64,000 bases of DNA from Olsenella massiliensis. GTDB lineage: Bacteria; Actinomycetota; Coriobacteriia; Coriobacteriales; Atopobiaceae. The translations under genes and the position numbers were made by a program. The stretch covers positions 186,001 to 250,000 of the forward strand of contig NZ_LN898210.1 in the NCBI RefSeq assembly GCF_001457795.1, read 5' to 3'. Below the pieces are notes generated by a model. It did not search any database. It was not told the DNA's origin and saw only the letters and a list, made by a program, of their open reading frames with translations. Positions 7,066 through 64,000 of this stretch are shown here, one piece after another. The first letter of the stretch is position 1; each line of letters starts with the position of its first letter.

Positions 7066-7094
7066 TGGAACGGGACCCGCGTGCTCCTCCCCCC

Positions 7095-24095: not shown

Positions 24096-24116
24096 TGCAG
24101 AACTGATAATTTCTCC

Positions 24117-24145: not shown

Positions 24146-24158
24146 AGCTAGCGCGCTA

Positions 24159-24233
24159 GGGCGATTGGCTCAGGGGTAGAGCACTTCCTTCACACGGAAG
24201 GGGTCGCTGGTTCAAATCCAGCATCGCCCACCA
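24159..24233 (+). tRNA. tRNA-Val (anticodon CAC)
   Basis: Cloverleaf: acceptor stem GGGCGAT/ATCGCCC, D arm GGCTCAGGGGTAGAGC, anticodon arm CTTCC-TTCACAC-GGAAG, T arm with GGTTCAAATCC, discriminator A, encoded CCA. It is followed by a terminator. Confidence 0.96.
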
Positions 24234-24244
24234 TGACATGACGA

Positions 24245-24274
24245 GGGCCAGGTTGGGTGACCTGGCCCTTTTTT
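24245..24274 (+). terminator. Terminator after tRNA-Val
   Basis: Stem GGGCCAGGT/ACCTGGCCC with a 6-nt loop, then six Ts. Confidence 0.92.
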
Positions 24275-24296
24275 CATGAGCACGCACCGTCCGGCC

Positions 24297-25310: not shown

Positions 25311-25358
25311 GGACGTTCCTCTCGATAGGAAGAGAATAATAGCTTAATGATACAATGA

Positions 25359-25516
25359 TACATCGATTAACCACTCGCGGACATTTTTATGCCGTTCATG
25401 GTCGAAATCTTAATTGGGTAAGTTCGTAACTGGTTAGTCGATTAATCTGTAGATAAACCGATTAAGCATCATGGTTTTACGGGACTCCCTCGTATTACTG
25501 GTGATTAATCGAAATA
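25359..25516. promoter_or_regulatory. LacI-type operator array between the regulator and the PTS operon
   Basis: Four 12-bp sites resemble the palindrome TTAATCGATTAA: TACATCGATTAA (25359-25370), TTAGTCGATTAA (25434-25445), TAAACCGATTAA (25454-25465) and TTAATCGAAATA (25505-25516). The central two are 20 bp apart, about two helical turns. The last lies 26 bp before the IIB start. CG-centred palindromes are typical of LacI proteins. No clear -35/-10 pair was fixed. Confidence 0.6.
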
Positions 25517-25541
25517 TCAATTACGTGTGAGGAGGTTACCC

Positions 25542-25841
25542 ATGAAGAAGATCGTTCTACTTTGCTCCGCCGGCATGTCAACAAGTCTTCTGGTCACCCG
25601 TATCAGGGAGGCCGCGCGCAGCCAGGCCTACGATGCTCAGGTTGACGCTTATCCGCTTTCCCAAGCCGAGAAGGCCGCCGCCCATGCCGACGTCGTCCTC
25701 ATCGGCCCCCAGGTTCGCTTCCAGCTGGACGACCTCAAGAAGCGCCTCTCATGTCCCGTGGACGTCATTGACATGATGGCGTACGGCACGATGGATGGTG
25801 CAAAAACGCTGGCCCAAGCCCAGAAAGTCATGGGGGAGTAG
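25542..25841 (+). CDS. PTS lactose/cellobiose-type IIB component
   Basis: A 99-residue phosphocarrier. The phosphorylatable Cys8 sits in KKIVLLCSAGMSTSLLV, the standard P-loop of this family. VVLIGPQVRFQLDDLKKRL follows. ATG 25542 has GAGGAGGTTACCC upstream; an in-frame upstream start is rejected. It opens the operon IIB-IIA-IIC-GH1. It passes phosphate from IIA to the sugar bound by IIC. Confidence 0.95.
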   Translation: MKKIVLLCSAGMSTSLLVTRIREAARSQAYDAQVDAYPLSQAEKAAAHADVVLIGPQVRFQLDDLKKRLSCPVDVIDMMAYGTMDGAKTLAQAQKVMGE

Positions 25842-25843
25842 TC

Positions 25844-26188
25844 ATGGCGGGAGAGGCCCAGGCGCAGATGCAAGACGAGGAAATGCTCTCTTTTAAAATA
25901 ATCGCGGCGGTCGGATCTGCGCGCAGCTGCTACATCGAGGCCATCCATGCCGCTCGCGACGGTGACTTCGTGCGCGCCGCAGAAAGCATCGAGCAGGGTA
26001 GGAAGGAGTTCCTTGCGGGACATGCTGTTCACAGTACCCTGCTTCAGCGCATGGCCTCCGGCGTCGACGTGAACATGAACATGCTTCTCACTCACGCGGA
26101 GGACCAGCTCATGAGCGCCGAGGGGTTTGGGATTCTTGCCGAGGAGTTCGTGAGCGTGTACCAAAGGATATATGAAAAGCAGGCCTAG
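25844..26188 (+). CDS. PTS lactose/cellobiose-type IIA component
   Basis: A 114-residue helical phosphocarrier, 2 bp downstream of IIB. FKIIAAVGSARSCYIEAIHAA and the C-terminal MLLTHAEDQLMSAEGFGIL match the family; His84 aligns with the phosphorylated His of the usual VHAQDHLM motif, here with Glu and Gln changes around it. A short Gln/Glu-rich N-terminus (AGEAQAQMQDEE) is extra. Confidence 0.92.
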   Translation: MAGEAQAQMQDEEMLSFKIIAAVGSARSCYIEAIHAARDGDFVRAAESIEQGRKEFLAGHAVHSTLLQRMASGVDVNMNMLLTHAEDQLMSAEGFGILAEEFVSVYQRIYEKQA

Positions 26189-26250
26189 CCACCAGAAGCT
26201 AAACCCCTACAACGACTTCTCGCCTCTATCTCTATAGAAGGAAGGCACAC

Positions 26251-27555
26251 ATGCATACAGAGGAAAAGCGCACGCTCGTTGATGCGGTCATGGACAAGAT
26301 CACGCTTCTCGCCGGCCCCCTGACCACGTTCTCGAACCTGCCCGCCATTGCCGCCATCCAAGACGGCCTCATCGGCGTCATGCCGCTGATTCTGATCGGT
26401 TCTATCTTCCTGGTGATTTCGCTCCTTGGCACAGACGCCATTGGAGGGGTCATCCTGATTCCCTTCCTTGCTCCCTTCGTCGAGAAAATCCAGGTCATCA
26501 ATGCGCTGACCATGGGATTCCTAGGCATCTACGCCGCCGTCACCATTCCCGCCTCCTATGCAGAGAGGCAGGGACTCGATGTCAAGACTTGCTCAGTCCT
26601 GGGGCTTGCTACCTTTTTCATGTTCACTCTCGACGGCGTGAGCAAGGACGGCACGATAGCGACAACGGCGTTCTCGGCAACGGGCCTCTTTGCCGTCATC
26701 GTTTCCTCTGTCATTGCCGTTTGGATCTTTCAGATCTTTACCAAGAGGAACATCACGATAACAATGCCCGATGGCGTCCCTGCGGCCGTGGGCACCGCCT
26801 TCACGTCCCTCATTCCCTTTACGGCCGTGTTTGTGATTTGCTGGGTCATCCGCACGCTTTTGGACTTTGACTTCGTCCAGTTCCTCACGACGTTCCTCAC
26901 GCCGCTCGTGGGAGCTGCGGACAACATAGGAATGTACGTCCTCGACCGTGGTGTAAGCGCGCTCCTATGGTCCTGTGGCCTCCACGGAGACAACATGTGG
27001 ACCGTTCCCATCTTCGCACCCTTTGAGCTCATCTGGACCCAGGAGAACTCTGCAGCAATGGCGGCTGGAAGCTCCCTTCCACACATCTGGACCTACAGCG
27101 GCATCGACCGCATCTCCACCTGGCCTGCCCTCGTGTGGCCTCTCGTTCTTCTCATGATTCGTTCCAAGGTCAAGTACCTCAAGGCTCTGGGATGGGCCTG
27201 CCTGCCTGCCGCGCTCTGCACCATCGTCGAGCCCGTCATTTTTGGTTTGCCCGTCGCCCTCAACCCCTTCTTGCTCATTCCCTTCGTGGTCATTGCCGTC
27301 ATCGTCGCCATCCTTACCTACGGCTTCTTCGCCCTGGGATTCTGCGCCAAATTCTTCGTCACCCTTCCTTGGGCGACCCCTCCCTTCCTGCTGGGGCCTC
27401 TCGGCACCGGCGACCTAAGGTCCCTCATCGTGGTCGTCGCCTCGTTTTTGATAGGGCTTGCCATCTATTTGCCCTTCTGGCGCATGTTCGAGAAAAGCTT
27501 GCTCAAGAAGCAGGAGGCTGACGAGGCGGACGCAAGCCCAGGGGCCGAGTCGTAG
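26251..27555 (+). CDS. PTS cellobiose-type IIC permease
   Basis: A 434-residue membrane permease with about ten membrane segments. Recognisable features are an N-terminal LAGPLTTFSNLPAIAAIQDG, GLIGVMPLILIGSIFLV, the substrate loop HGDNMWTVPIFAP, and IVEPVIFGLPVALNPFLLIP. It imports a disaccharide or beta-glucoside as its 6-phosphate. AGAAGGAAGG precedes the ATG. The GH1 gene downstream fits a phospho-glycoside substrate. Confidence 0.95.
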   Translation: MHTEEKRTLVDAVMDKITLLAGPLTTFSNLPAIAAIQDGLIGVMPLILIGSIFLVISLLGTDAIGGVILIPFLAPFVEKIQVINALTMGFLGIYAAVTIPASYAERQGLDVKTCSVLGLATFFMFTLDGVSKDGTIATTAFSATGLFAVIVSSVIAVWIFQIFTKRNITITMPDGVPAAVGTAFTSLIPFTAVFVICWVIRTLLDFDFVQFLTTFLTPLVGAADNIGMYVLDRGVSALLWSCGLHGDNMWTVPIFAPFELIWTQENSAAMAAGSSLPHIWTYSGIDRISTWPALVWPLVLLMIRSKVKYLKALGWACLPAALCTIVEPVIFGLPVALNPFLLIPFVVIAVIVAILTYGFFALGFCAKFFVTLPWATPPFLLGPLGTGDLRSLIVVVASFLIGLAIYLPFWRMFEKSLLKKQEADEADASPGAES

Positions 27556-27661
27556 GAACTTCCGAGGCATGGGCTCTCGCTCGCCTGCCGATAAGCTCAC
27601 AAGACAACCGTTCTATGCGCACACCGCATTAACTACTCGACATATCGAGAAAGGACTATCC

Positions 27662-29164
27662 ATGGCAACGTTTTCGAATGATTTTCTGTGGGGCGGGGAC
27701 ATCTCTGCAACCCAGATCGAGGGTGGTTGGGACGAGGGCGGCAAGTCGCCCGTCGAGACGGATTACATGGTCGGCGTCACTCATGAGACTCCCTTCCGCT
27801 ACGGCTTCTATCGCAATCCTGACGGGAGCGAGGGTACCATGCAGCTCTATTCGGGGAAGCTTCCCAAGGGCGCTCAGATGATCATCAAGGAGGGATACGA
27901 CTACCCCAACCACAAGGCCTCCGACTTCTATCACCATTACAAGGAGGACCTTGCGCTTCTTGCCGAGATGGGGTTCACGGCGCTCAACCTCACGATGAGC
28001 TGGGCGCGAATCTTCCCTGGAGGCATCTCACAGGGCATCAACTCGGAGGGCGTGGAGTATTACCGCAGCGTGCTCAGCGAGTGCAAAAGGTTGGGCATGG
28101 AGCCAATCGTCACGCTCTACAAGTATGACATGCCCTTCTTTTATGTGAGTGAATGGGGGGGATGGTCAAATCGCAGGCTTATCGAGGAGTACGTCGAGTT
28201 TGCGCGCGTCTGCCTGACGGAGTTCAAGGGACTTTCCCACCATTGGATCACCTTCAACGAGCTTAACATCCTTAAGCTTACGATGGACACCCTTCCGGAT
28301 GTCACCGCGGAGGATCGCCAGCGCTTCTTCGAGGAGGCCCACAACCAGCTCGTTGCCTCCGCTCGAGTCGTCAGGCTCGCCCACGCGATTGACCCTGACA
28401 ACCTTGTGGGCTGCATGTGCGCGGGACTCTTTGGCTACGGCTACACCTGCGACCCCAACGATCAACTTAAGATGCAGAAGTACATGCAGGACGCCATGTT
28501 CTACTACGGAGACGTCATGGTTCGTGGTGCGTATCCCCGCTTTGCCCGTCGCGTTTGGGAGGAGAACGGCGTCAGCCTCAACGTCAGCGCCGAGGATGCG
28601 GCCGACCTCATGGCGGGTCGTGTGGACTTTCTGCCCTTCTCGTATTACAGCTCCACCTGTCTGACGACCCATGAGATTGACGCTTCCTTGGTAAGCGGCA
28701 ACGCCAGCTTCAGCGGCGTGAAGAACCCCTATCTCGCATCAACCCCCTGGGGTTGGGAGATCGACCCTGTGGGCTTCAAGATTGCCCTGCATGTCCTTTC
28801 TGACCGCTATTACGACACGCCGCTTCTCGTTGTCGAAAATGGCATGGGAACTCTTGACAGGCTTGAGGATGATGGAAGCGTCCATGACCCCTATCGTATC
28901 GAGTATCTGCGAGAGCATATCCGCAACATGCGCGAGGCGGTTAAGGAGGGCGTCAACCTCATCGGATACACGATGTGGAGCTGCATAGACCTCATCTCTG
29001 CCGGTACGGGCGAGATGCGCAAGCGCTACGGGTTCATCTATGTTGATGCTGCCGACGATGGGTCTCCGCAGGGTAGCTACAAGCGCTATCGCAAGGATTC
29101 CTTCCACTGGTACAAGGGCGTCTGCGAGTCAAATGGCGAAGCGCTCGCCCAGGCAGCTCCCTAG
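27662..29164 (+). CDS. GH1 family glycosidase (6-phospho-beta-glycosidase-like)
   Basis: A 500-residue enzyme expected to split the PTS-imported phosphorylated glycoside. The N-terminal FLWGGDISATQIEGGWDEGGK and MSWARIFP are typical GH1. The general acid/base is Glu200 in ITFNELN; the usual NEP reads NEL here. The nucleophile is Glu392 in LVVENGMG. The ATG at 27662 follows GAAAGGACTATCC; an upstream in-frame start overlapping the IIC gene is rejected. The length is slightly above the usual 440-480. Substrate identity is unknown. Confidence 0.93.
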   Translation: MATFSNDFLWGGDISATQIEGGWDEGGKSPVETDYMVGVTHETPFRYGFYRNPDGSEGTMQLYSGKLPKGAQMIIKEGYDYPNHKASDFYHHYKEDLALLAEMGFTALNLTMSWARIFPGGISQGINSEGVEYYRSVLSECKRLGMEPIVTLYKYDMPFFYVSEWGGWSNRRLIEEYVEFARVCLTEFKGLSHHWITFNELNILKLTMDTLPDVTAEDRQRFFEEAHNQLVASARVVRLAHAIDPDNLVGCMCAGLFGYGYTCDPNDQLKMQKYMQDAMFYYGDVMVRGAYPRFARRVWEENGVSLNVSAEDAADLMAGRVDFLPFSYYSSTCLTTHEIDASLVSGNASFSGVKNPYLASTPWGWEIDPVGFKIALHVLSDRYYDTPLLVVENGMGTLDRLEDDGSVHDPYRIEYLREHIRNMREAVKEGVNLIGYTMWSCIDLISAGTGEMRKRYGFIYVDAADDGSPQGSYKRYRKDSFHWYKGVCESNGEALAQAAP

Positions 29165-29214
29165 ACGGGAGTCGCGTCGTCGTATCGGACATTGGACCGA
29201 ATGGGAAAGAGACC

Positions 29215-30102
29215 ATGAACACCCCGCTTGCGCTTGTGCCCGCCCTCTCGTTCGGTGTCATCCCGGGCATCGTGACGAAATCGGGCGGACGCCCTTGCCA
29301 GCAGCTCATGGCGACGGCGGTCGGAATCGGGGGGCTTGCTGCCTCCGTTGCCCTCGTGCTACGGCCTGACATAGGTATCGTCGTCTTTGGCGCGGGCTTT
29401 GCCTCGGGACTCCTCTGGGCCGTCGGCACCGTGCTCCAGTATGAGACGTTCTCTCTGGTTGGTTCTGGAAGCGCATTCTCGCTGCAGGTAGGGGCCCAGC
29501 TCGTCCTCAGCGCGATTGCGGGGTTGACACTCTTCGGCGAATGGGCAACGTCCGTCTCGCGGGTCGTAGGCCTTGTCGCTCTCGCTCTGGTGATGGCCGG
29601 GGTCTCCCTTGCGGGCTGGCAGGGGAGAGGTGTCGCTGCTGCCGACCACGCCGACCACAGGCGTGCCGTTCTTCTCTCCCTCGCGGCGAGCGTCGCGTTT
29701 GTCTCCTACGCCATGATGCCCCGGCTGGTGGGCGCCACCGGCGCGGCGGCTCTCGTCCCGCAGGCCGTGGGGATTGCGCTCGGGGCCCTTTGTTTGAGTC
29801 TCGTTGACCGGGCGCTGCAGCGCAGGGCAGACGCGTCAGAGGCCCTCTTTGGCATCAATGTGATGCCCTGCGTGCTCGCGGGTGTCGTGTGGGCGGTTGG
29901 TGACATGGCCTTCGTCTATTCGAACCAGCTAAACGGCATCGCGGTTAGCTTCACGTTCTCCCAGCTTGCGGTTGCGGTGTCCACCGTTATCAGCATCGTG
30001 GTTCTACATGAGGCTGCTGATGTGGATAAACGAAGGAGGCTGATTGCTGGTGCCGTGCTCATCACCGTGGGCGCGTCCCTGGTTGGCGTGACAAAGCTCT
30101 AG
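29215..30102 (+). CDS. GRP-family sugar uptake protein (GlcU/RbsU-like)
   Basis: A 295-residue membrane protein with about ten segments arranged as two repeats. LVPALSFGVIPGIVTKSGGRP, GFASGLLWAVGTVLQYETFSLVG and VGDMAFVYSNQLNGIAVSFTFSQ resemble the glucose/ribose porter family of the drug/metabolite superfamily. It would take up a free sugar, unlike the PTS upstream. It is 50 bp after the GH1 gene. Specificity (glucose, ribose or another sugar) cannot be assigned; neighbours alsE-like and rpiB-like suggest a pentose or rare hexose. Confidence 0.82.
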   Translation: MNTPLALVPALSFGVIPGIVTKSGGRPCQQLMATAVGIGGLAASVALVLRPDIGIVVFGAGFASGLLWAVGTVLQYETFSLVGSGSAFSLQVGAQLVLSAIAGLTLFGEWATSVSRVVGLVALALVMAGVSLAGWQGRGVAAADHADHRRAVLLSLAASVAFVSYAMMPRLVGATGAAALVPQAVGIALGALCLSLVDRALQRRADASEALFGINVMPCVLAGVVWAVGDMAFVYSNQLNGIAVSFTFSQLAVAVSTVISIVVLHEAADVDKRRRLIAGAVLITVGASLVGVTKL

Positions 30103-30159
30103 GCGTACCCACGCGTTCGCATGATTTGACGCATTTCCATTTCTAGAAAGGAGGGGGAC

Positions 30160-30813
30160 ATGCTCCTCTGCCCCAGTATGATGTGCGCTGACTATGGTGC
30201 CCTCAAAGACGATGTGAGGGCACTTGATGAGGCGGGTGCGGACATCTTTCACTGTGACGTGATGGACGGCACCTTCGTGCCCAACATCACGATGGGCCTC
30301 ATGGACGTGAGGGAGGTTCGCAAGGCGACGAAGAAGCCCGTTGACGTCCACCTCATGGTGGAAAATCCCCTTGCCAAGGTGGACCTCTTCCTCGACGCTG
30401 GTGCTGACATTGTCTACATCCACCCTGAGAGCGAACGCTATGTGGTGAAGACGCTCGCTCGCGTCAGAGAGCGTGACGCCGCCGCAGGCCTCGCCATCAA
30501 CCCCGACACGTCGGTGGGATCGATTGAGGAACTACTCAACGTCGTTGATTATCTTATGGTCATGACGGTGAATCCCGGCTTTGCGGGCCAGAAGTTCATC
30601 GACTTCTCGAAGAGGAAGATTGAGCGTCTCGCGGACATGAAGGAAAAGTATGGCTACAAGCTCATGGTTGATGGCGCCTGCAGTCCCTCAGTCGTCCGGG
30701 AGCTCTCGTCTTGCGGTGCCGATGGCTTCGTGCTTGGTACGAGCGCGCTCTTTGGCAAGAGGATCGGCTATGCCGAGTGCCTCAGGAACCTTCGCGAGAG
30801 AAAGGACTATTGA
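30160..30813 (+). CDS. Ribulose-phosphate 3-epimerase family protein, AlsE-like
   Basis: A 217-residue TIM barrel. LLCPSMMCADYGALKDDV, HCDVMDGTFVPNITMG, VDVHLMVENP, MVMTVNPGFAGQKFI and LMVDGACSPS carry the metal and phosphate sites. The MMCAD and GACS text, where housekeeping Rpe has LSADF and GGI, is closer to D-allulose-6-phosphate 3-epimerase (AlsE). The window also has a typical rpe at 45161, so this copy probably serves the sugar locus. GAAAGGAGGGGGAC precedes the ATG. Confidence 0.85.
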   Translation: MLLCPSMMCADYGALKDDVRALDEAGADIFHCDVMDGTFVPNITMGLMDVREVRKATKKPVDVHLMVENPLAKVDLFLDAGADIVYIHPESERYVVKTLARVRERDAAAGLAINPDTSVGSIEELLNVVDYLMVMTVNPGFAGQKFIDFSKRKIERLADMKEKYGYKLMVDGACSPSVVRELSSCGADGFVLGTSALFGKRIGYAECLRNLRERKDY

Positions 30814-30814
30814 C

Positions 30815-31285
30815 ATGCAGGTTGCCATTGGAAACGACCACGTGGCCGTGGAACTTAAGCGTATCATTAAAGAATATCTTGAAGAGAAGGGCATCAAGGT
30901 CGCCGACTTTGGGACAAACAGCCCAGAACGCTTTGACTACCCCCTCAGTGGATATAGAGTCGGTAAGGCGGTTGCCTTGGGGGAGGCAGACCTGGGCATT
31001 CTCATATGCGGGACGGGTGTGGGCATCAGCCTCGCGGCAAACAAGGTGAGGGGAATCAGGGCCGTCGTCTGTTCGGAACCTTACACGGCTCGTCTCTCGC
31101 GCCAGCACAACAACACGAACATTCTCGCCTTTGGTGCTCGGGTCGTGGGAAGCGAGCTTGCGAAGATGATTGTGGACGCGTGGCTTGACGCGGAGTTTGA
31201 GGGAGGGCGCCACCAGAAGCGCATTGACATGATCGCTGAAATTGCGGACACGCAGCGGCTTGCGGTGGCGGAGGACGACGAGTAG
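30815..31285 (+). CDS. RpiB/LacAB family sugar-phosphate isomerase
   Basis: A 156-residue isomerase: MQVAIGNDHVAVELK, YPLSGYRVGKAV, and the catalytic loop ILICGTGVGISLAANKVRGIRA, then HNNTNILAFGARV. The Cys in ICGTG is the catalytic base in RpiB. E. coli RpiB also acts on D-allose 6-phosphate. Starting one base after the epimerase stop, it suggests a coupled isomerase-epimerase pair. Ribose, allose or galactose 6-phosphate are possible substrates. Confidence 0.9.
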   Translation: MQVAIGNDHVAVELKRIIKEYLEEKGIKVADFGTNSPERFDYPLSGYRVGKAVALGEADLGILICGTGVGISLAANKVRGIRAVVCSEPYTARLSRQHNNTNILAFGARVVGSELAKMIVDAWLDAEFEGGRHQKRIDMIAEIADTQRLAVAEDDE

Positions 31286-31363
31286 GCCCTTCATGGCGGG
31301 AGCGGCATCTTGCGTTATGGCGCGGTCCGTGCCCTTTTCGTCCGCCTGTCCCGGGTAATGCGG

Positions 31364-31369
31364 TACAAT
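31364..31369 (+). promoter_or_regulatory. -10 element for tRNA(CAT)
   Basis: TACAAT, 46 bp upstream of the mature tRNA. No recognisable -35 at 16-18 bp. Confidence 0.4.
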
Positions 31370-31415
31370 GCCCCTCGCACGGATGGTCAGGCCAGCGTGT
31401 TCGTCTGACTCCAGT

Positions 31416-31491
31416 GGGCCTATGGCGCAACGGTTAGCGCAGGGGACTCATAATCCCTGGGTTGCAGGTTCGAATCCTGCTGGGCCCACCA
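31416..31491 (+). tRNA. tRNA with CAT anticodon (Met elongator or Ile2)
   Basis: Acceptor stem GGGCCTA/TGGGCCC with one G-U pair, D arm GGCGCAACGGTTAGCGC, anticodon arm GGGGA-CTCATAA-TCCCT, T arm with GGTTCGAATCC, discriminator A, encoded CCA. CAT can be elongator Met or lysidine-modified Ile2; sequence alone does not settle it here. Confidence 0.93.
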
Positions 31492-31500
31492 CGACGTCTC

Positions 31501-31531
31501 ACCCCGTCTCACGCTCGTGGGGCGGGGTTTT
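31501..31531 (+). terminator. Terminator after tRNA(CAT)
   Basis: Stem ACCCCGTC/GGCGGGGT (one G-U pair) with a 12-nt loop, then four Ts. Confidence 0.6.
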
Positions 31532-31679
31532 ACATGCGCCGCTGACGTTACGACGGCACGTAAGAGCACGCGGCGGCGCAATACAGGGCGACGCGACGCA
31601 ATATGACACGCTCATCTTGCCATTTGACGCACTTTTCGCTCATAATCGGCCACAAACTGTGTAAAAAGACAAGATGAGG

Positions 31680-31769
31680 GCGCTGCGGGGCGCCGTGGCG
31701 TGTCGCATCGTGCTGCGAGGTGCCATGGAGTGCTGCGTCGCGCTGCAGGATGCAACGGAGTGCGGCGTG
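31680..31769. repeat. 30-bp tandem repeat, three degenerate copies
   Basis: Units 31680-31709, 31710-31739 and 31740-31769 each begin G(C/T)GCTGC and end in a TGCG-type pattern. Copies are about 60-70% alike. They fill most of the 360-bp gap between two tRNA genes, which otherwise holds no gene I can support. Confidence 0.7.
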
Positions 31770-31844
31770 GCGACGCACGGTGGGCTCCGCCGACATTTCC
31801 GCCTTGGCACGACGATTCCGAGAAAAAACTTCTCAAATTTTCCC

Positions 31845-31873
31845 TAGGCAGTCGCCAAAGTCTTTGCTATAGT
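31845..31873 (+). promoter_or_regulatory. Promoter of tRNA-Ala
   Basis: TAGGCA (31845-31850), 17-bp spacer and TATAGT (31868-31873) in a local AT-rich patch, 20 bp before the tRNA. Confidence 0.55.
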
Positions 31874-31893
31874 AGCTAGCGCACCAACGCAAC

Positions 31894-31969
31894 GGGGAAT
31901 TAGCTCAGTTGGGAGAGCGCATGACTGGCAGTCATGAGGTCAGGGGTTCGAATCCCCTATTCTCCACCA
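31894..31969 (+). tRNA. tRNA-Ala (anticodon GGC)
   Basis: Acceptor stem GGGGAAT/ATTCTCC, D arm TAGCTCAGTTGGGAGAGC, anticodon arm CATGA-CTGGCAG-TCATG giving GGC, T arm with GGTTCGAATCC, discriminator A, CCA encoded. Confidence 0.96.
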
Positions 31970-31980
31970 TGTAATTGCTG

Positions 31981-32006
31981 ACCAGGGCTTTTGCCCTGGT
32001 TTTTTT
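31981..32006 (+). terminator. Terminator after tRNA-Ala
   Basis: Perfect stem ACCAGGGC/GCCCTGGT, loop TTTT, then six Ts. Confidence 0.92.
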
Positions 32007-38236: not shown

Positions 38237-38958
38237 TCGTTGCCATCGACGGGCCCGCCGGGTCGGGCAAGAGCAGCGTCGCCAGGGCCGTCGCCCGGCG
38301 TCGCGGCCTCATGCTGCTCGACACCGGGGCCATGTATCGCGCCATCACCTGGCGCTGCCTCATGCGCGGCGTCAGCTGCGAGGACGAGGGGGCCGTCTCG
38401 CGCGAGGCGGCGCAGGCCCGGGTGAGCTTTGGCGTGGGCGACGACGGGTCGCAGACCGTCATGCTCGACGGCGACGACGTCACGCGCCAGATTCGCCTGC
38501 CCGAGGTCGATCGCAACGTCTCGGCCGTCTCCTCCTTCAAGGCGGTGCGCGAGGCCATGGTCGCCCAGCAGCGCCAGCTGGCCGCGGCACAGGACGTCAT
38601 CGCCGAGGGACGTGACGTCGGCACGGTGGTCTTCCCGCAGGCGGACGTGAAGGTCTTCCTGACGGCGGACGCCCGCGAGCGCGCCTTCCGCCTGCCTCTT
38701 ATACCCCTGGCGGGGGCATGGTGTCCGCGCCGTCGTGGGGTCCGCGGCGACCGGGTCGCCGGCTTTTGTAAGGGGCGATTCCCCGTGTCTGTTATACCCT
38801 TCTGTAGGTTAAAAAGAGCGAGGCGGGGACGAGCGGGACGCGCCCGGGCGCGGGCCCCGCTGGGGGCGGCCGCCGATGCCGTGCTCATCGACTCCTCCCG
38901 CCTCACGTTTGACGAGGTGGTCGACAGGATCGTACGGATGATGGACAGGGTGGGGTGA
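38233..38958 (+). CDS. cmk: Cytidylate kinase, corrupted in the middle by library artefact
   Basis: Phosphorylates CMP and dCMP. ATG 38233 overlaps the preceding stop. The N-terminal two thirds are normal: IVAIDGPAGSGKSSVARAVA, LLDTGAMYRAITW, VIAEGRDVGTVVFP and KVFLTADARERA. From about 38690 to 38840 the reading passes through two degraded mosaic ends and a piece of gpsA that happen to stay in frame, giving an alien stretch (LPLIPLAGAWCPRR onward). The genuine end APLGAAADAVLIDSS resumes. The LID region with the RD..DS.R motif is lost from the assembly but presumably present in the organism. Confidence 0.85.
   Translation: MIVAIDGPAGSGKSSVARAVARRRGLMLLDTGAMYRAITWRCLMRGVSCEDEGAVSREAAQARVSFGVGDDGSQTVMLDGDDVTRQIRLPEVDRNVSAVSSFKAVREAMVAQQRQLAAAQDVIAEGRDVGTVVFPQADVKVFLTADARERAFRLPLIPLAGAWCPRRRGVRGDRVAGFCKGRFPVSVIPFCRLKRARRGRAGRARARAPLGAAADAVLIDSSRLTFDEVVDRIVRMMDRVG
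38692..38822. other. Chimeric artefact: mosaic end + gpsA fragment + mosaic-end palindrome
   Basis: 38692-38710 matches the Nextera mosaic end at 14 of 19 bases. 38714-38763 copies gpsA 44567-44618 exactly apart from two single-base deletions, and weaker similarity continues to about 38782. 38785-38822 aligns ungapped with the 38-bp mosaic-end palindrome at 26 of 38. This order is what a chimeric tagmentation fragment would leave. Confidence 0.9.
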
Positions 38959-40602: not shown

Positions 40603-40640
40603 CTGGCTCTTATACACAACTAGGTGGGGTTAAGAGGCAA
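40603..40640. other. Degraded Nextera mosaic-end palindrome between ispH and the DUF512 gene
   Basis: 38 bases align ungapped to the mosaic-end palindrome with 30 matches, including an exact CTCTTATACACA core. The following 50 bases are unusually G-rich. The true sequence between ispH and the next gene is therefore uncertain. Confidence 0.9.
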
Positions 40641-45839: not shown

Positions 45840-46286
45840 GTGTCCGCGCCCGACCCCAAGACGTGCGACGACCCCAGGCGCCTCGTCTACCTTGACTACG
45901 CCGCCTCCGCACCGATCAGGCCCGAGGCCCTCGATGCCGAGCGCGCCTACGAGGCCTCCGAGATCGCCGGGGTCAACCCCAACTCCCTCCACACGCTGGG
46001 ACGTCGCGCGGCCCGCGCCCTCGACGGCGCCCGACGTGACCTCGTCAGGGCCCTGGGGGGCGGGTTCAGGCCCCAGGATTTCATCCTCACCTCGGGCGGC
46101 ACCGAGTCAAACAACCTCGCCCTGTACGGCCTGGCCCTTGGTGCGCGCGGTCGGGATCGCTCACGCCGGCGTGTGGTCATCTCGGCCATCGAACATGACT
46201 CCGAGCTGGACGTGGCGCCGTCCCTGCGCGACGCGGGCCTCGAGGTCACGCTCGTGCGGCCCGGCGCGGACGGGTCGGTCTCGTAA
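45840..46286 (+). CDS. Cysteine desulfurase (NifS/IscS type), N-terminal fragment
   Basis: PLP enzyme that supplies sulfur for Fe-S clusters and tRNA thiolation. GTG 45840 opens SAPDPKTCDD, then VYLDYAASAPIRPEAL, NPNSLHTLGRRAARAL, FILTSGGTESNNLALYGLAL and VVISAIEHDSELDV, all canonical. After PGADGSVS the frame enters AT-rich foreign sequence and Illumina P5 adapter. The 3' part resumes at 46426 in a different frame. About 30-40 residues are missing in the assembly; the gene is presumably whole in the organism. Confidence 0.85.
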   Translation: MSAPDPKTCDDPRRLVYLDYAASAPIRPEALDAERAYEASEIAGVNPNSLHTLGRRAARALDGARRDLVRALGGGFRPQDFILTSGGTESNNLALYGLALGARGRDRSRRRVVISAIEHDSELDVAPSLRDAGLEVTLVRPGADGSVS

Positions 46287-46424
46287 GGTAATAATATTAC
46301 ATAGACAACTTGAATTACATATTTTAATTTTCTTACGTGCTTGCCATGCTTAAACGTTTTTATGTCTTTAATTTTTGAATGCTTCGGCGACCACCCAGAT
46401 CTACACTCTTTCCCCCCACGACGC
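46287..46424. other. Low-GC insert followed by Illumina P5 adapter (library contamination)
   Basis: 46287-46377 is strongly AT-rich, unlike anything nearby. 46378-46424 matches the first 47 bases of the P5/read-1 adapter at 42 of 47, including the exact stretch GATCTACACTCTTTCCC. Genomic coding sequence restarts immediately after. The AT-rich piece may be from another organism or low-quality read ends. Confidence 0.95.
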
Positions 46425-46425
46425 G

Positions 46426-47058
46426 GGTGCCCTCATGCACGTCGACGCCTCACAGGCCTTCGGCCGCATACCCCTCGCGCTGGACGACGTGGACGCCGTG
46501 ACCCTCGCGGCGCACAAGATCGGCGGCCCCGTGGGCGTGGGCGCCCTGGTCGTGAGGAGCCGCTGCCCGCTGCGGCCCCTCACCTTCGGCGGGGGGCAGG
46601 AGGCGGGCAGGCGGCCGGGCACCCAGGACGTTCGGGGCGCCCTGGCCTTCGCCGCCGCGGCGCGGGCCGTCTGCGCGCGCCTCGACGACACGCGCGTCGT
46701 CGTCTCGTCTCGCGCGCAGAGGCTCTATGACCGCCTGTGCGCCGAAGGGACGGGCATCGTCCCCACGACGACGGCCCAGATGGGCCCCGACCGCCTTCCC
46801 GGCATCGTTTCGGTCATGACGGGCCGCCTCGACTCCGAGACGCTCGTGCTCAAGCTTGACGAGCGGGGCTTCGAGGTCTCGGCGGGCTCGGCCTGCTCCT
46901 CGGGCTCGCTCGACGCGAGTCACGTATTGTTGGCCATGGGCATACCGCGCGAGCTGGCCCTGGGTGCGCTGCGCATCTCGTTTGACGAGCGCGTGAGCCC
47001 CCAGGACCTCGACCGCCTCGCCGACTGCCTGCTTGGCATCGTCGCAGACGCACGCTAG
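46426..47058 (+). CDS. Cysteine desulfurase (NifS/IscS type), C-terminal fragment
   Basis: The frame carries the rest of the enzyme: GALMHVDASQAFGRIPL, the PLP-lysine in VTLAAHKIGGPVGVGALVV, RPLTFGGGQEAGRRPGTQDV, and the catalytic Cys in EVSAGSACSSGSLDASHVLL. RISFDERVSPQDLDRLAD ends it. With the upstream fragment it would form a normal protein of about 385 residues. No iscU or thiI is adjacent in the window. Confidence 0.85.
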   Translation, partial: GALMHVDASQAFGRIPLALDDVDAVTLAAHKIGGPVGVGALVVRSRCPLRPLTFGGGQEAGRRPGTQDVRGALAFAAAARAVCARLDDTRVVVSSRAQRLYDRLCAEGTGIVPTTTAQMGPDRLPGIVSVMTGRLDSETLVLKLDERGFEVSAGSACSSGSLDASHVLLAMGIPRELALGALRISFDERVSPQDLDRLADCLLGIVADAR

Positions 47059-57814: not shown

Positions 57815-58243
57815 ATGGCTGAGGAGCTGAGGGAGAGATCAGGAGAGAGAGCACAGGATCCTGTGACGGTGCATGTGGTTTCCGACTCCCTGGGGACCAC
57901 CGCGACCGCCCTTGTTAAGGCGGCGGCTGTGCAATTTGCCGTGGGAACGGTGAGCGTGAGCTGCCTCTCCCATGTGAGCAATGTGGCACAGGTAGAGGAG
58001 TATCTCTCTCGCTTTGCACCAGAGGGACACGGCACCGCGCTCTTTCACACCATCCTCGACCCTCAACTGCGCGAGGAGATTCGCCACACGCTCGAGGACC
58101 GGAACATTTCCTCGGTGGACCTCCTGGGGCCGACAGTGGGCATGATCTCCCGTCTTACGGGGGTGGACCCGCTCAACATCCCCGGGCTCGTGGTCGATCG
58201 CGACGTGGACATCGTGTGCCACGTGGACGCCCGCGAGCTGTAG
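57815..58243 (+). CDS. Half-length PDRP/PSRP-like protein (N-terminal domain only)
   Basis: A 142-residue protein like the N-terminal domain of the bifunctional kinase/phosphorylases that regulate PPDK or PEP synthase: VHVVSDSLGTTATALVKAAA, GTALFHTILDPQLREEI, and ISSVDLLGPTVGMISRLTGVDP. The usual C-terminal half with the Walker-like GxSRTGKTP motif is absent. The next 80 bases in every forward frame show no continuation. ATG 57815 has GAGGGGAGTATTCC upstream. Either a regulator reduced to its N-domain or a truncated gene; ppdK lies at the other end of the window. Confidence 0.75.
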   Translation: MAEELRERSGERAQDPVTVHVVSDSLGTTATALVKAAAVQFAVGTVSVSCLSHVSNVAQVEEYLSRFAPEGHGTALFHTILDPQLREEIRHTLEDRNISSVDLLGPTVGMISRLTGVDPLNIPGLVVDRDVDIVCHVDAREL

Positions 58244-58286
58244 GGGAGGGCATCGTGGCACGTCAGGGGTGAGAGGAAATTTCTTC

Positions 58287-58315
58287 TTGCCACCGGCGGT
58301 GTTGAGTGTTAGATT
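58287..58315 (+). promoter_or_regulatory. Promoter of tRNA-Pro
   Basis: TTGCCA (58287-58292), 17-bp spacer and TAGATT (58310-58315), 32 bp upstream of the tRNA. Confidence 0.5.
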
Positions 58316-58347
58316 ATGTATTCGCGCACCAGCACGGTGGGCAACGG

Positions 58348-58424
<77 letters not shown>

Positions 58425-58435
58425 GAAAACAGCAG

Positions 58436-58466
58436 GTGGGACGGGGTAAAACCCGTCCCACTTTTT
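58436..58466 (+). terminator. Terminator after tRNA-Pro
   Basis: Stem GTGGGACGGG/CCCGTCCCAC, loop GTAAAA, then five Ts. Confidence 0.92.
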
Positions 58467-58578
58467 GTTTGAAGAGGGTTACAAACCACTAAGAGCCACT
58501 AAGCCCTAGCGCAAATTGACATAAATGCATAAAAATATGCATCCGTTCCGCTTTCCTACTAATTGCCACTGTCTACAG

Positions 58579-58645
58579 TTGCCAACTTAGTTTTCTCTTA
58601 TATGATTAACTCACTATGAAGTCAATCGTATGCTATGTGACATAG
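58579..58645 (+). promoter_or_regulatory. Promoter and palindrome before the first element gene
   Basis: TTGCCA (58579-58584), 16-bp spacer and TATGAT (58601-58606). A palindrome CTATG-TGA-CATAG (58633-58645) lies just downstream and could be an operator. The surrounding 250 bp are AT-rich; ATGCATA-AAA-TATGCAT forms another palindrome near 58525. Confidence 0.5.
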
Positions 58646-58679
58646 ATTTTCTACCGTAGAGAGAAGAGTAGGAGACGAC

Positions 58680-59126
58680 ATGCGCAAGATAATCAAGGGG
58701 AGGCTTTACGACACAGACACGGCGGTGCCGCTCACCGAGACCATCGCGTCGGGAGGCATCGACAACGTTTCGCGATGCGAGGAGAGGCTCTACCGCAAGC
58801 GGACCGGCGAATTCTTCCTGTGCGGATGGAGCGGGCCTTTGGGGCGCTACTCGAAGCCATGCGGCGAGAGCGGCTTTGGCAGCATGCAGGGAAGCGGGAT
58901 CATCCCCCTCTCGCAGGAGGCCGCGCGCGAGTGGGGCGAGTACAACCTCGACACGGAGGACTACAAAAAGATTTGGGGCACCCCGCCGGAGGACGAGACG
59001 CGTCAGATAGGTGTGCAGGTGAGCGAGGCCACCTACCGCGCCATAAAGCGCGAGGCCGCCGACCTCGGCATTACGATGGGCGCCGTCGTGGACCGTCTCG
59101 CGGAGGCACTCCCGTTCGCCGACTAG
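58680..59126 (+). CDS. Conserved mobile-element-type protein (RLYDTDTA domain)
   Basis: A 148-residue protein. The N-terminal 100 residues, MRKIIKGRLYDTDTAVPL, RLYRKRTGEFFLCGWSGPL and IIPLSQEAAREWGEYNL, match a conserved but uncharacterised domain I recall from integrative elements of Gram-positive bacteria. The C-terminal 40 residues (IGVQVSEATYRAIKREAADL) look like a ribbon-helix-helix-type or short helical DNA-binding tail. TAGGAGACGAC precedes the ATG. Function unknown. Confidence 0.75.
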   Translation: MRKIIKGRLYDTDTAVPLTETIASGGIDNVSRCEERLYRKRTGEFFLCGWSGPLGRYSKPCGESGFGSMQGSGIIPLSQEAAREWGEYNLDTEDYKKIWGTPPEDETRQIGVQVSEATYRAIKREAADLGITMGAVVDRLAEALPFAD

Positions 59127-59158
59127 GAGTGGCCGCCCGACGCGCTCGTAGGAGCAAA

Positions 59159-59182
59159 CCCCGCCTCGGCGGGGCATTTTTT
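59159..59182 (+). terminator. Terminator after the element gene
   Basis: Stem CCCCGC/GCGGGG, loop CTCG, then CA and six Ts. Confidence 0.85.
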
Positions 59183-59231
59183 GTCGCTTTTTACCCTTTG
59201 CCTCATGGCTTGCCGCTTACCGCCAGAAGAA

Positions 59232-59474
59232 CTAGTGTTCTCTAACTGTAATGCCATCCGAGAACCCCGTTAGAAAATTAGGATTGGAGTTGGTTACGTT
59301 GGCAATTGCTACGAGATTTTCGGCACTTGGAGTTCTAAGCCCGCGCTCCCAGTTAGACACGGTTTGCTTATCGACCCCGATACCTTCGCCTAGCTCAACC
59401 TGGCTGATGTGCGCCGTAGTGCGAGCAATGCGAATACGGTTACCTATCAATCTCTTGATTTCAGAAACTTCCAT
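59232..59474 (-). CDS. XRE-type helix-turn-helix regulator
   Basis: An 80-residue single-domain repressor-like protein: IKRLIGNRIRIARTTAHISQ, VELGEGIGVDKQTVSNWERG and LRTPSAENLVAIANVTN form the complete five-helix HTH, with FLTGFSDG after it. Lower GC than the host genes. Divergent from the small gene at 59629, with a perfect hairpin between them. Confidence 0.9.
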   Translation of the reverse strand: MEVSEIKRLIGNRIRIARTTAHISQVELGEGIGVDKQTVSNWERGLRTPSAENLVAIANVTNSNPNFLTGFSDGITVREH

Positions 59475-59562
59475 CTGGAACTCCTTGCTAGGGTGGTAGG
59501 CCGTTATTTATATTGTAGATAAAAAACAGTTGATATAGTAGAACGAAAGGCCTATATTGTTC

Positions 59563-59599
59563 TTGTCTCTTAGTAGGTCGTTTACCTACTAAGAGACAA
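59563..59599. repeat. Perfect 15-bp inverted repeat in the XRE upstream gap
   Basis: Arms TTGTCTCTTAGTAGG (59563-59577) and CCTACTAAGAGACAA (59585-59599) around loop TCGTTTA. AT-rich surroundings. It may be an operator for the XRE protein or a terminator-like hairpin. Its resemblance to the Nextera end is limited to the outer nine bases. Confidence 0.75.
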
Positions 59600-59628
59600 A
59601 AACCGCCTACCAGTGAGGGGAGCACACC

Positions 59629-59859
59629 ATGAGTGGCATCGAGACAAGGGCATATGCAGACGACGACAGCATCAGGATCTATTACCTTAAGGACGGGGAG
59701 ACGGTCTGGGCTAGCCGGTACACGAGCCTTGAGGACGCCACCTATGTAGCGCAAGACTTCATCGGCCTTGCCACTCAGTGCATGGACCCCATCGAGGAGG
59801 GCTGGCCCGGTGAGCAGCTTGACGAAGCCGCCGAGCTTGGCACCCCCATCACCACCTAA
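59629..59859 (+). CDS. Small acidic hypothetical protein
   Basis: A 76-residue acidic protein (MSGIETRAYADDDSIRI) with a clear ribosome site GTGAGGGGAGCACACC. No membrane segment or known motif is seen. It lies 155 bp from the divergent XRE gene and could be its target. Unknown function. Confidence 0.65.
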   Translation: MSGIETRAYADDDSIRIYYLKDGETVWASRYTSLEDATYVAQDFIGLATQCMDPIEEGWPGEQLDEAAELGTPITT

Positions 59860-60008
59860 CTGCACGACGCCAGGACTGTCGACACCGACTGCATCAGGCC
59901 CGAGAAGGCGACCACGGCATACGAGAAGGCCTTCGCGAGGGCGATTTACGAGACCGCAAAACGGAAACGGGGGCGGGGCTGCCTCGACCCCCACATGACT
60001 GGAGGCAT
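59860..60008 (+). pseudogene. Possible coding remnant with no start codon
   Basis: Directly after the previous stop, the same frame stays open for about 50 codons with host-like codon use and protein-like text (DTDCIRPEKATTAYEKAFAR, then AIYETAKRKRGRG). There is no ATG/GTG/TTG with a ribosome site before it. It may be a decayed gene, a read-through tail of the 76-residue protein, or a sequencing error at the TAA. Confidence 0.35.
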
Positions 60009-60497
60009 ATGGAGGGCGGCAGGGCGAGGCGCGGCGGGGAGAGCTTCGAGCGCCAGAAGAGGGAGCGCCCGAAGGCGGAGTTTCGCGCCTTGCGCGAGAC
60101 GATCGGCATGACGCAGGGGTTCCTCGCAAGCGCCCTCATGGTGGGCGACAGGAGCGTGCGCAGGTGGGAGGGGCCGGACGACAGGTACTACCCGCCAGAC
60201 GACGCCTGGGACCTCGTTGACGCCGCGCTCAGGCGGCAGAGGCGCGTCGTGGCACTCGCCCTCGCGAGGGTGGACGAGACGGCGAGGGAGCGGGGAGGCT
60301 ACCCCGACGTGGTCACGCTCACGTACTGGTCAAGCGACGAGCAGTACGTGGCGGGCAGCCGCGTTTCCGACGGCGGAGACTGGCGCATGGCGAACGCGAA
60401 CAGCCGCCTGATAGCCTTCGCGCTCAGTCGTCGCGGCGTCCGCGTCGCGTGGTCGGACGGCCCCACGGCGCCCGGTCAGGAGCGCATCGAGGCATAA
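60009..60497 (+). CDS. Helix-turn-helix protein of an accessory element
   Basis: A 162-residue protein. EFRALRETIGMTQGFLASAL and MVGDRSVRRWE, residues 23-55, form an HTH like those of phage and element anti-repressors (Aca2/YdiL type). The C-terminal part (YWSSDEQYVAGSRVSDGGDW) is not recognised. TGGAGGC stands before the ATG. GC-rich, unlike the flanking XRE gene, so the segment is mosaic. Confidence 0.75.
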   Translation: MEGGRARRGGESFERQKRERPKAEFRALRETIGMTQGFLASALMVGDRSVRRWEGPDDRYYPPDDAWDLVDAALRRQRRVVALALARVDETARERGGYPDVVTLTYWSSDEQYVAGSRVSDGGDWRMANANSRLIAFALSRRGVRVAWSDGPTAPGQERIEA

Positions 60498-60498
60498 G

Positions 60499-60528
60499 AA
60501 AAGCCCGCGCGCCAAAAGACGCGGGGGC
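60499..60528 (-). terminator. Terminator for the leftward gene at 60541
   Basis: Read on the minus strand, GCCCCCGCG and CGCGCGGGC form a stem followed by TTTTC. Confidence 0.6.
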
Positions 60529-60540
60529 ATCTCTCACGGT

Positions 60541-60798
60541 CTACTTTGTCGATACGCTCAGCTCGATGCTGGCGAGCTTGGCCGCGACGGCGTCAGAGAC
60601 CGCCTTGGCCACGGCTTCTGGGTCGGCGCCCCTCGTCGCCGCAAGGGTCTTCACGGCCTCGGTAAGCACGGCCACCTCGATCACGAGCCTGCCGCAGTAG
60701 GTGTCTATGTAGCGTATGCGCTCGGCCAAGCCCGCGCCGCTCGTCTCAACAAGGCGAAAGTCTGCCTGCATGAGGCGCCCACCGGCCTCAACCACCAT
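60541..60798 (-). CDS. Short phage-type C-terminal fragment or small protein
   Basis: The ATG at 60798 gives 85 residues: MVVEAGGRLMQADFRLVETS, YIDTYCGRLVIEVAVLTEAV, and DPEAVAKAVSDAVAAKLASI. This helical pattern resembles the C-terminal region of some actinobacterial phage tail or lysin proteins, so it may be the last piece of a longer gene. The frame stays open upstream to about 60834, exactly where base composition drops, which fits truncation at a recombination boundary. A longer reading using TTG 60834 is possible. Confidence 0.5.
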   Translation of the reverse strand: MVVEAGGRLMQADFRLVETSGAGLAERIRYIDTYCGRLVIEVAVLTEAVKTLAATRGADPEAVAKAVSDAVAAKLASIELSVSTK

Positions 60799-60834
60799 CT
60801 CGGCGCACCCGCTCAAGAAGACGAAAAACAACAA

Positions 60835-61192
60835 GAAACTTTGTCTTTAGATCTACGAAAGCCATATCATCATATTTACTTGATAATAGAAGATGTTCTG
60901 CCAATTCAGCGTTGAAGCATGGAAAAGTCCAGCCAAGGCTGTCTTTTTTGCTATCAAAACGCATGTGGAATCCTAAAGATCAATGGCGTTAAAAGCTAAA
61001 CACGGACCTTTAGTGTGTGTAGATAAGATCGAGGTCTGGAAACACTTTTTTCTTTGCAGAAAGCCTGGTAGCAAGAGGTCAGATAGGCACTGGAAGCATC
61101 ATAAGGTGCAGGATGAAGGGTGGTCCATCTGTGGGGCGTAGCCGCGGGTAGGTTGTTATTCTCTGTGTAGGAGATGCACGAGGTCTTGAGAC
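60835..61192. other. Gene-free AT-rich stretch at a composition boundary
   Basis: About 360 bp without a supportable gene in either strand. It joins the GC-rich island genes to the lower-GC sugar locus. I see no tRNA, hairpin terminator or recognisable att repeat in it. Confidence 0.6.
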
Positions 61193-61960
61193 TCAGACTT
61201 CGTCCGTATCGATCAGAAGGCAATCTGCCCTGTCCAGGCTTTCATGCCACCCTTTGCTCAGAGGCTCATCGGTGATTATCCCCGTCGCTTCCGTGAAGTC
61301 GCAGAGATGGACAAAGGACGTGTTATCGAACTTGGAATGGTCTGCGACAAAGTAGGTATGCTGCGAATGTTCGAGAACAATCCTTCTGACATCATTCCAA
61401 CGGTCGGTGGAATCTGTGATGCCGCTGTTCAGGGATAGGGATCGGCAAGAGAGAAATGAAGTGTCGACGTAATAGCGCGCTATGGTCAGTTTTGCTATAG
61501 GTCCGTAAAAGGCCTTCTCCGTTGGGGAATAGTTGCCACCGATGCCAATGAGCTTGATGTTCGAACACTTTGCAAGCATGTTCAGAATCATCAGGTTGTT
61601 GGTCAGGACCGTAATTCGCATGTCCTGCAGAACCTTCGCTATATAGAAGCAGGTCGTCGAGTTATCCAGGAAAATGGTGTCCCCGTTACTGACAAAACGT
61701 AGACAGCGCGCAGCGATGATTTTTTTGCTGTGGCGGTAGGCGGTCGTTCGGATATTGACATCTACAAGATTGTCAACACCTGTCTGGACATATGCTCCTC
61801 CATAGGAACGCCTGAGAGTCCCTTTGGATTCGAGGTCCTTGAGATCTCTCCGGATGGTTTCGTCCGTCACCGAAAAGATCTGGGCAAGTTCCGTTACAGA
61901 AGCGCTCTTCTTTTCGCGAACGATCTCTGCAATTTTCTGACGTCTGACCGCACCAATCAT
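61193..61960 (-). CDS. DeoR-family transcriptional regulator
   Basis: A 255-residue repressor. The N-terminal HTH is RRQKIAEIVREKKSASVTEL followed by IFSVTDETIRRDLKDLESKG and LRRSYGGA, typical DeoR. The C-terminal sugar-phosphate sensing domain shows FLDNSTTCFYIAKVL, VLTNNLMIL, GIGGNYSPTEKAFYGPIA and FVADHSKFDNTSFVHL. Start MIGAVRRQK at 61960 fits the family; MPSDWWT at 61981 adds seven residues. It is divergent from the galactitol-type PTS genes and probably represses them. Confidence 0.9.
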   Translation of the reverse strand: MIGAVRRQKIAEIVREKKSASVTELAQIFSVTDETIRRDLKDLESKGTLRRSYGGAYVQTGVDNLVDVNIRTTAYRHSKKIIAARCLRFVSNGDTIFLDNSTTCFYIAKVLQDMRITVLTNNLMILNMLAKCSNIKLIGIGGNYSPTEKAFYGPIAKLTIARYYVDTSFLSCRSLSLNSGITDSTDRWNDVRRIVLEHSQHTYFVADHSKFDNTSFVHLCDFTEATGIITDEPLSKGWHESLDRADCLLIDTDEV

Positions 61961-62184
61961 TGTCCACCAGTCCGAGGGCATAGAGAATCACGTTAAGACA
62001 CTAATTATTACTCTTTTTGCTTGTTCTTGTACGTCTTTTTATGAAAACCCGTTCACCGAAAAATCAACAATATATGACACAAATCAAAAAGAATCTCACA
62101 TAAACAAAAAAGAAACGTGTAATATCAGGCAATGTACTATGTGTTCTTGTTGATAGATGTTGATTTTGAGAGGTGGTGAATTCA
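61961..62184. promoter_or_regulatory. Divergent AT-rich control region
   Basis: Repeated motifs lie here: TTGTTCTTGTACG (about 62030), GTTCTTGTTGATAG (about 62142), and inverted ACAAAAAAGAAACG (about 62105). These could be DeoR operators. No consensus promoter was fixed. Confidence 0.4.
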
Positions 62185-62901
62185 ATGAAACAGATATTCA
62201 TGTCTGAAAAGGAGGCTCGTCAGGCAATTGTCGAAGTAGGAAGGCGCATGTATGGTCATGGCTATGTCGTCACTAACGACGGTAACATTTCCGTCCGGAC
62301 TTCTCGATCGGAGATAGTTGTTACGCCGACTGGTGTTTCCAAGGGATTCATGACGCCAGAGATGATGGTGAAGATGAATCTAGATGGCGAAGTGCTTGAT
62401 GCAAAGGACACAAAGCCTTCCAGCGAAGTGAAAATGCATCTGCGTGTCTACGCAGAAGACGACAATGTGACGGCGGTTGTCCATGCGCACCCCATCTACG
62501 CGACGTCCTATGCAATTGCGGGCATTCCGCTGGATGAACCGATTTTGTCTGAAGCGATGCTCCAAATAGGAGCTGTGCCTATTGCAAAATATGCGAAGCC
62601 CGGAACATATGATGTTCCGGATGGCATCGCGGCGTTCGTGAAGGGCTATGGGGCAGTACTTCTCTCGAACCATGGCGCCCTGACATGGGGGACGACGCTC
62701 GGTGAAGCATTTTCCCGCATGGAGGTGCTCGAGAACTATGCACATATCAGCTTTGTTGTAGGCCTGCTCGGTGGTGGACGAGGTCTTGATGCGGAACAGG
62801 TAGCCGGGCTGGCCGGAATCCGGAAAGAGATGGGTCTTGCGGCGATTTCCATGCCCGTGGGTCGGCAAGAAAAGGAAAACGGAGAAGACCTGATTCCGTA
62901 A
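62185..62901 (+). CDS. Class II aldolase/adducin family (L-fuculose-phosphate aldolase-like)
   Basis: A 238-residue zinc aldolase-type protein. Diagnostic text: NDGNISVRTSRSEIVVTPTG, PSSEVKMHLRVYAEDDNVTA, the zinc-binding VVHAHPIYATSYAI and LLSNHGALTWGTTLGEAF. Glu in SSEVKMH is the catalytic acid/base candidate. ATG 62185 lies 7 nt after GAGGTGG; GTG at 62173 overlaps that ribosome site and is rejected. It would cleave a sugar 1-phosphate to DHAP and an aldehyde. Codon use is less GC-rich than the chromosome average. Confidence 0.9.
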   Translation: MKQIFMSEKEARQAIVEVGRRMYGHGYVVTNDGNISVRTSRSEIVVTPTGVSKGFMTPEMMVKMNLDGEVLDAKDTKPSSEVKMHLRVYAEDDNVTAVVHAHPIYATSYAIAGIPLDEPILSEAMLQIGAVPIAKYAKPGTYDVPDGIAAFVKGYGAVLLSNHGALTWGTTLGEAFSRMEVLENYAHISFVVGLLGGGRGLDAEQVAGLAGIRKEMGLAAISMPVGRQEKENGEDLIP

Positions 62902-62954
62902 ACGTCACGGATTCTGCAGGTGCGCGCAACGAATGTGGTGAGGGGTATTTCGAA

Positions 62955-63407
62955 ATGCTGTTGAGGAAAGAACTTGTCTATGTCAATCTCAAAGCTTTGT
63001 CAAGAGAGGACTTACTTCGAAAGCTTGCAGGTGAATTTCTGAAAGAGGGGTTGGTCAAGCCGTCTTTTCCCCAGGCGATCCTTGACAGGGAGGCAGTTTA
63101 TCCCACAGGACTTCCTGCTGTTGCGTTTGATATAGCCATTCCTCATTGTGCAGCTTCGAATGTCAACGAAACGTCTATGGCGGTTGCTACCCTGGAACAT
63201 CCTGTGGAATTCCAGCAGATGGGGTCAGCAGATATAACGCTGCATCCTGAAGTCGTTTTCATGCTTGCCATCCAGGATCCCGGCAAGCAGTTGGAGATGC
63301 TCCAAAAGATCATGGGAATCATACAGGATCGCGGGCTGCTCGAAAAGATTCGCAGCTCGAAGAATGCCGATGAGCTGTATGGTTTGCTGTCGCCAAAGGT
63401 CAATTAA
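62955..63407 (+). CDS. PTS IIA component, fructose/galactitol type
   Basis: A 150-residue phosphocarrier. The phosphorylated His64 is in FDIAIPHCAAS, and REAVYPTGLPAVAF and EVVFMLAIQDPGKQLEML match the family. TGAGGGGTATTTCGAA precedes the ATG. It accepts phosphate from HPr and passes it to the IIB at 63454. Confidence 0.93.
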   Translation: MLLRKELVYVNLKALSREDLLRKLAGEFLKEGLVKPSFPQAILDREAVYPTGLPAVAFDIAIPHCAASNVNETSMAVATLEHPVEFQQMGSADITLHPEVVFMLAIQDPGKQLEMLQKIMGIIQDRGLLEKIRSSKNADELYGLLSPKVN

Positions 63408-63453
63408 GGTCAGGCTGTCGGAAGGACCGGCAAAAGCGAGAAAGGAAGCAATC

Positions 63454-63756
63454 ATGCTCAAGAAAGTAAAGTTCCTGTCAGTGTGCGGTTCAGGTGTGGT
63501 GACCTCCCACATGATGGCCAATAAAATCGTCGACATGCTCTCTGATGAGGGCTATGACGCAGAAGCTGACGAATGCAACCCCTCCGAGCTCGATGGATAT
63601 CTGATGCGCGGAAACTATGATTTCATTGCCAATTCGAGCCCCATTGGCGACGCGCATGGAGTGCCTGCATTCTCCGCAATGGGCCTCATCACGGGACTGG
63701 GAGACGAGGAGTTTTTGAAGCAGGTGCTTAATCTTCTTCAGAAAAAAGACAAGTAA
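63454..63756 (+). CDS. PTS IIB component, galactitol type
   Basis: A 100-residue phosphocarrier. Cys11 in VKFLSVCGSGVVTSHMMANK is the phosphorylation site of the Gat IIB family. GAAAGGAAGCAATC precedes ATG 63454; an in-frame start inside the IIA gene is rejected. It lies 46 bp after IIA and 47 bp before IIC. Confidence 0.94.
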   Translation: MLKKVKFLSVCGSGVVTSHMMANKIVDMLSDEGYDAEADECNPSELDGYLMRGNYDFIANSSPIGDAHGVPAFSAMGLITGLGDEEFLKQVLNLLQKKDK

Positions 63757-63803
63757 GTGCTTTTGCTCGGGCAGCAAGCTTGGATATAACAGAAAGGGAA
63801 AGA

Positions 63804-64000
63804 ATGGACGCATTCCTCAATGCCTTGAATCTGTTCTTCACGACATTCAAGGCTGCCGTTTTTGTTCCTGTATTCATTTTCATCATTGCCCTTGCCATGG
63901 GCGTAAAACCCAAGAAGGCCTTCTTCTCTGCGCTGTCAGCTGGTGTAGGCCTTGAGGGCTTTTCGCTCGTTATCGGCACGTATAGCCCGATTCTCCAGCC
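63804..64000 (+). CDS. PTS IIC component, galactitol type (cut by window end)
   Basis: Only 65 residues are visible. ATG 63804 follows AGAAAGGGAAAGA. MDAFLNALNLFFTTFKAAVF is followed by a hydrophobic run and MGVKPKKAFFSALSAGVGLE, as in GatC/SgcC permeases. It completes a IIA-IIB-IIC set. The remaining membrane domain is outside the window. Confidence 0.9.
   Translation, partial: MDAFLNALNLFFTTFKAAVFVPVFIFIIALAMGVKPKKAFFSALSAGVGLEGFSLVIGTYSPILQ

Follow-up and report, generated by a model that had tools for sequence, protein, structure and literature searches.

Within the window, the whole 64,000-nucleotide stretch of DNA that was analysed, a NifS/IscS-type cysteine desulfurase gene is interrupted by an AT-rich block that runs directly into a copy of the Illumina P5/TruSeq universal oligo (Table 1). 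Both halves of the gene are genuine chromosomal sequence and match the NifS family in the correct order by profile search, with 41 profile positions lying between the two matched stretches (124 to 166); neither half reaches the whole-protein cut-offs of the family, because each was scored alone.

Table 1. Coordinates of the desulfurase locus and of the adapter and mate-pair junction relics. Entries beginning with C are contig positions in the same assembly; all others are window positions.
Feature	Position	Strand	Evidence
Cysteine desulfurase, N-terminal 148 codons, genuine chromosome	45840–46283	+	NCBIfam NifS profile 1–124 of 379, E = 1.8e-19
AT-rich junk, 94 bases, presumed run-off base calls	46284–46377	-	24.5% GC; A-rich by the adapter; no significant match in phages, plasmids, E. 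coli genomes or at this locus in relatives
Illumina P5/TruSeq universal oligo, first 47 bases	46378–46424	+	42/47 identical, ungapped alignment
Same desulfurase, C-terminal 211 codons and stop, genuine chromosome	46423–47058	+	NifS profile 166–374 of 379, E = 1.1e-47
Worn P5 copy	7064–7121		full 58-base alignment; 22 other bases before the junction at 7144
Nextera mate-pair junction, exact	7144–7181		38 bases
Mate-pair junction, partial	9601–9638		30/38
Mate-pair junction, partial	38785–38822		26/38
Mate-pair junction, partial	40603–40640		30/38
P5 copy	C2:188–243		100% over query 1–56 of 64
TruSeq P7 read-through	C12:388589–388651		89%
TruSeq P7 read-through	C13:345130–345196		100%; index GCCAAT (index-6 oligo), A-run of 11, then junk
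Worn partial P7 copy	C13:345289–345330		
TruSeq P7 read-through	C13:880488–880555		100%; index GCCAAT (index-6 oligo), A-run of 13, then junk

The original prediction placed the cut between PGADGSVS and GALMHVD, and the two parts of the enzyme lie as it described; as an account of the damage, a simple split is nevertheless incomplete. Between DGSVS and AGALMH, the window desulfurase is missing a stretch of 39 residues shared by all ten of the aligned full-length relatives (of 19 relative loci, ten passed a motif filter for full length and the other nine were dropped for having no frame with both motifs, not for want of the segment). With the N-terminal half as query, 39 of 40 genomes gave a match, the source genome included, and the best matches among those listed are free of internal stops. 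A relative's 63-residue stretch, used as query to look for the missing segment in other parts of the assembly, matched only distant paralogues (the best one 48% identical across 42 residues) and the desulfurase's own downstream flank. In the place of about 117 native bases stand 139 artificial ones (46284–46422). Because the 39 residues are absent, the adapter and AT-rich block together are a replacement rather than a clean insertion; in the organism itself, the gene is most likely intact.

The adapter copy and the AT-rich block

The P5/TruSeq universal oligo is 58 bases long and the window copy aligns without gaps to its bases 1–47, bearing out the predicted Illumina contamination. Elsewhere in the window, ungapped matches reach at most 30/47 on the plus strand, at 7064, which is itself a second adapter relic, and 29/47 on the minus strand; the oligo read backwards, used as a control, scores 26/47 at best. 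The window copy carries five errors as against none in that of contig C2 and, since the match ends at base 47 of 58, it is a truncated relic and not a full copy. Its missing final 11 insert-side bases, TCTTCCGATCT, are kept in 119 of the 125 listed public P5 matches described below, indicating that adapter and gene do not meet at a simple ligation end. The last eight matched bases (CACGACGC) may also be native: one relative (L007) has CAC GAC GCG at the corresponding codons, and a stretch common to adapter and gene would explain where the join fell.

The AT-rich stretch was correctly recognized in the original prediction as low in GC, but it measures 94 rather than 91 bases and begins at 46284, directly after codon TCG (46281–46283), rather than at 46287; the earlier start fell three bases late because an in-frame TAA (46284–46286) already belongs to the block. 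Its GC content is tied for the lowest among all 94-mers of the window; outside the block the minimum is 27.7%, at about 62058, and GC per 1 kb around the block is 67–69%. On the minus strand, 17 of the 30 bases adjacent to the adapter are A; the A-run by the oligo end is only five long, with AAAAA TTAAA instead of a clean poly-A or poly-T of at least seven. Related genomes, in which matching AT-rich sequence at this locus had been named as the finding that would speak against contamination, gave no significant match at this locus in any of 59 relatives: among the 60 genomes searched the block occurs at full length in the source genome only, and the best match outside it covers 28 bases (E = 0.009).

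A scan of named public genomes for P5, with any base allowed at three places, covered at least 120 stretches, giving at least 125 matches, and revealed that a T-run together with junk is the general pattern 5' of the oligo. Among listed matches having at least 12 bases on that side, 93 of 98 contain a T-run of at least seven, a fraction that does not count independent assemblies, since a small number of sequencing runs (DRR093003–DRR093005) account for many of the listed loci. The junk is lower in GC than its locus in 67 of the 75 listed matches with at least 40 such bases (mean 35% versus 51%), and it is at or below the 24.5% of the window block in 14 of 70 with at least 60. An A-run of at least five within the first 15 bases, taken in the read direction, occurs in all 70 of these listed matches, and likewise in the window block.

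Further relics in the same assembly

The assembly comprises 13 contigs and 1,818,711 bases (1.82 Mb), and the window locus is one of a number of sites at which library sequence survives in it (Table 1). About 180 bases of junk open contig C2, followed by a T-run and by P5; this copy, otherwise perfect, ends its match at about oligo base 50. The three TruSeq P7 read-throughs are internal to their contigs. Searches for the Nextera mosaic end gave 17 + 17 matches (both strands, at most three mismatches) against 0 and 0 for a reversed control; the reversed control for the mate-pair junction reached at most 20/38 in the window. Given how such libraries are designed, the combination of TruSeq ends and Nextera junctions points to a Nextera mate-pair library.

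Coding sequence is affected at other relics too. The relic at 7064–7181 precedes a ribonuclease HII gene that lacks its start region, what remains beginning at about profile position 50–70 in the closest models and at 117 in the longest. The relic at C13:880488 sits in an rlmKL-like gene, part of whose middle is missing: against the rlmKL model (704 positions), the upstream part matches up to 122 and the downstream part, well past the relic, from 417. At C13:345130, the P7 relic comes immediately after a gene start and is followed by what reads as a different gene, so that a false join is possible at this site.

Origin of the block

In Illumina adapter read-through, which arises in short-insert or mate-pair libraries, a read passes from insert into adapter, then into poly-A and finally into noise. 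Viewed on the minus strand, the window block follows this same order, of which the copies at C13:880488 and C13:345130, with their poly-A, are textbook examples; it departs from the typical case in its imperfect poly-A and in the loss of the oligo's insert-side 11 bases. We consider it almost certain that the block in the desulfurase gene is an assembly artefact, a gap closed with untrimmed adapter read-through. At least some of the sequencing would have drawn on a Nextera mate-pair library whose end adapters were of the TruSeq type, and the assembler or a gap filler would have used an untrimmed read at a gap in the gene. This read, on the minus strand, would leave genuine gene sequence at about 46423, traverse the P5 oligo in reverse complement as far as the oligo end at 46378 and continue into meaningless A/T-rich calls (46377–46284). 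Linking these calls to the left flank, which ends at 46283, would have cost about 117 bases of real gene and substituted 139 artificial ones.

The simplest account of the AT-rich piece is that bases went on being called once the read had passed the end of the adapter; such calls, rather than the DNA of another organism, are most likely what it consists of. The missing perfect poly-A run counts against simple run-off, and the five adapter errors and the absence of the oligo's final 11 bases count against the artefact reading as a whole. The same imperfect poly-A, together with a composition far from that of the genome (24% versus 67–69% GC), speaks for carry-over of the 94 bases from another low-GC organism or vector through index hopping or as an adapter chimera, in which case they would have become attached to P5 and been taken up into the contig. 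Yet blastn of 46287–46377 against phages, plasmids and E. coli genomes returned chance-level matches (best E 0.2, 0.7 and none, respectively), other assemblies show junk of a similar kind on the 5' side of P5, and a library molecule is not normally known to carry sequence there, all of which makes carry-over very unlikely. A foreign organism as the source, as the original prediction had it, was rejected on the blastn result, and that claim is left unsupported, the block having no significant matches in those three sets and resembling the junk 5' of public P5 copies. A chimeric molecule in which real DNA of some undescribed low-GC organism had become attached to P5 strikes us as an exceedingly improbable source of the piece.

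A real chromosomal insertion or insertion–deletion disrupting the desulfurase would agree with the genuine, correctly ordered flanks, but the block includes an Illumina oligo, is absent from relatives and is accompanied by further read-through relics across the same assembly; we give such an event practically no chance. An insertion element, for which the original prediction rightly cautioned that the low-GC segment might be mistaken, was rejected as well: 39 residues of native sequence are missing, the flanks are not both complete and an adapter is present.

Known artefacts and the sequence record

Cases described in PMC11536531 (BMC Genomics 2024) are of Illumina adapter sequence carried into published microbial assemblies, with contamination reported as concentrated at contig ends. 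These cases and the window have in common an Illumina adapter in a published assembly and adjacent forward- or reverse-specific adapter parts; whereas those cases are concentrated at contig ends, the window relic is located mid-contig (421,722 bases) and replaces coding sequence. The window block is an ordinary adapter artefact and not a real biological feature, and the phenomenon is already in print.

Its consequence is for data quality only: automatic annotation would call the desulfurase a pseudogene or two genes, and the same mis-annotation would follow wherever relics fall in genes, such as those for ribonuclease HII and the rlmKL-like protein. The listed completeness of 97% and contamination of 0.26% for this assembly thus do not reveal adapter relics; what is called for is correction of the record, not study of the block. 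Elsewhere in the window, GC falls from about 69% to 48–64% at 24001–32000 and 58001–64000, regions that were possibly acquired.
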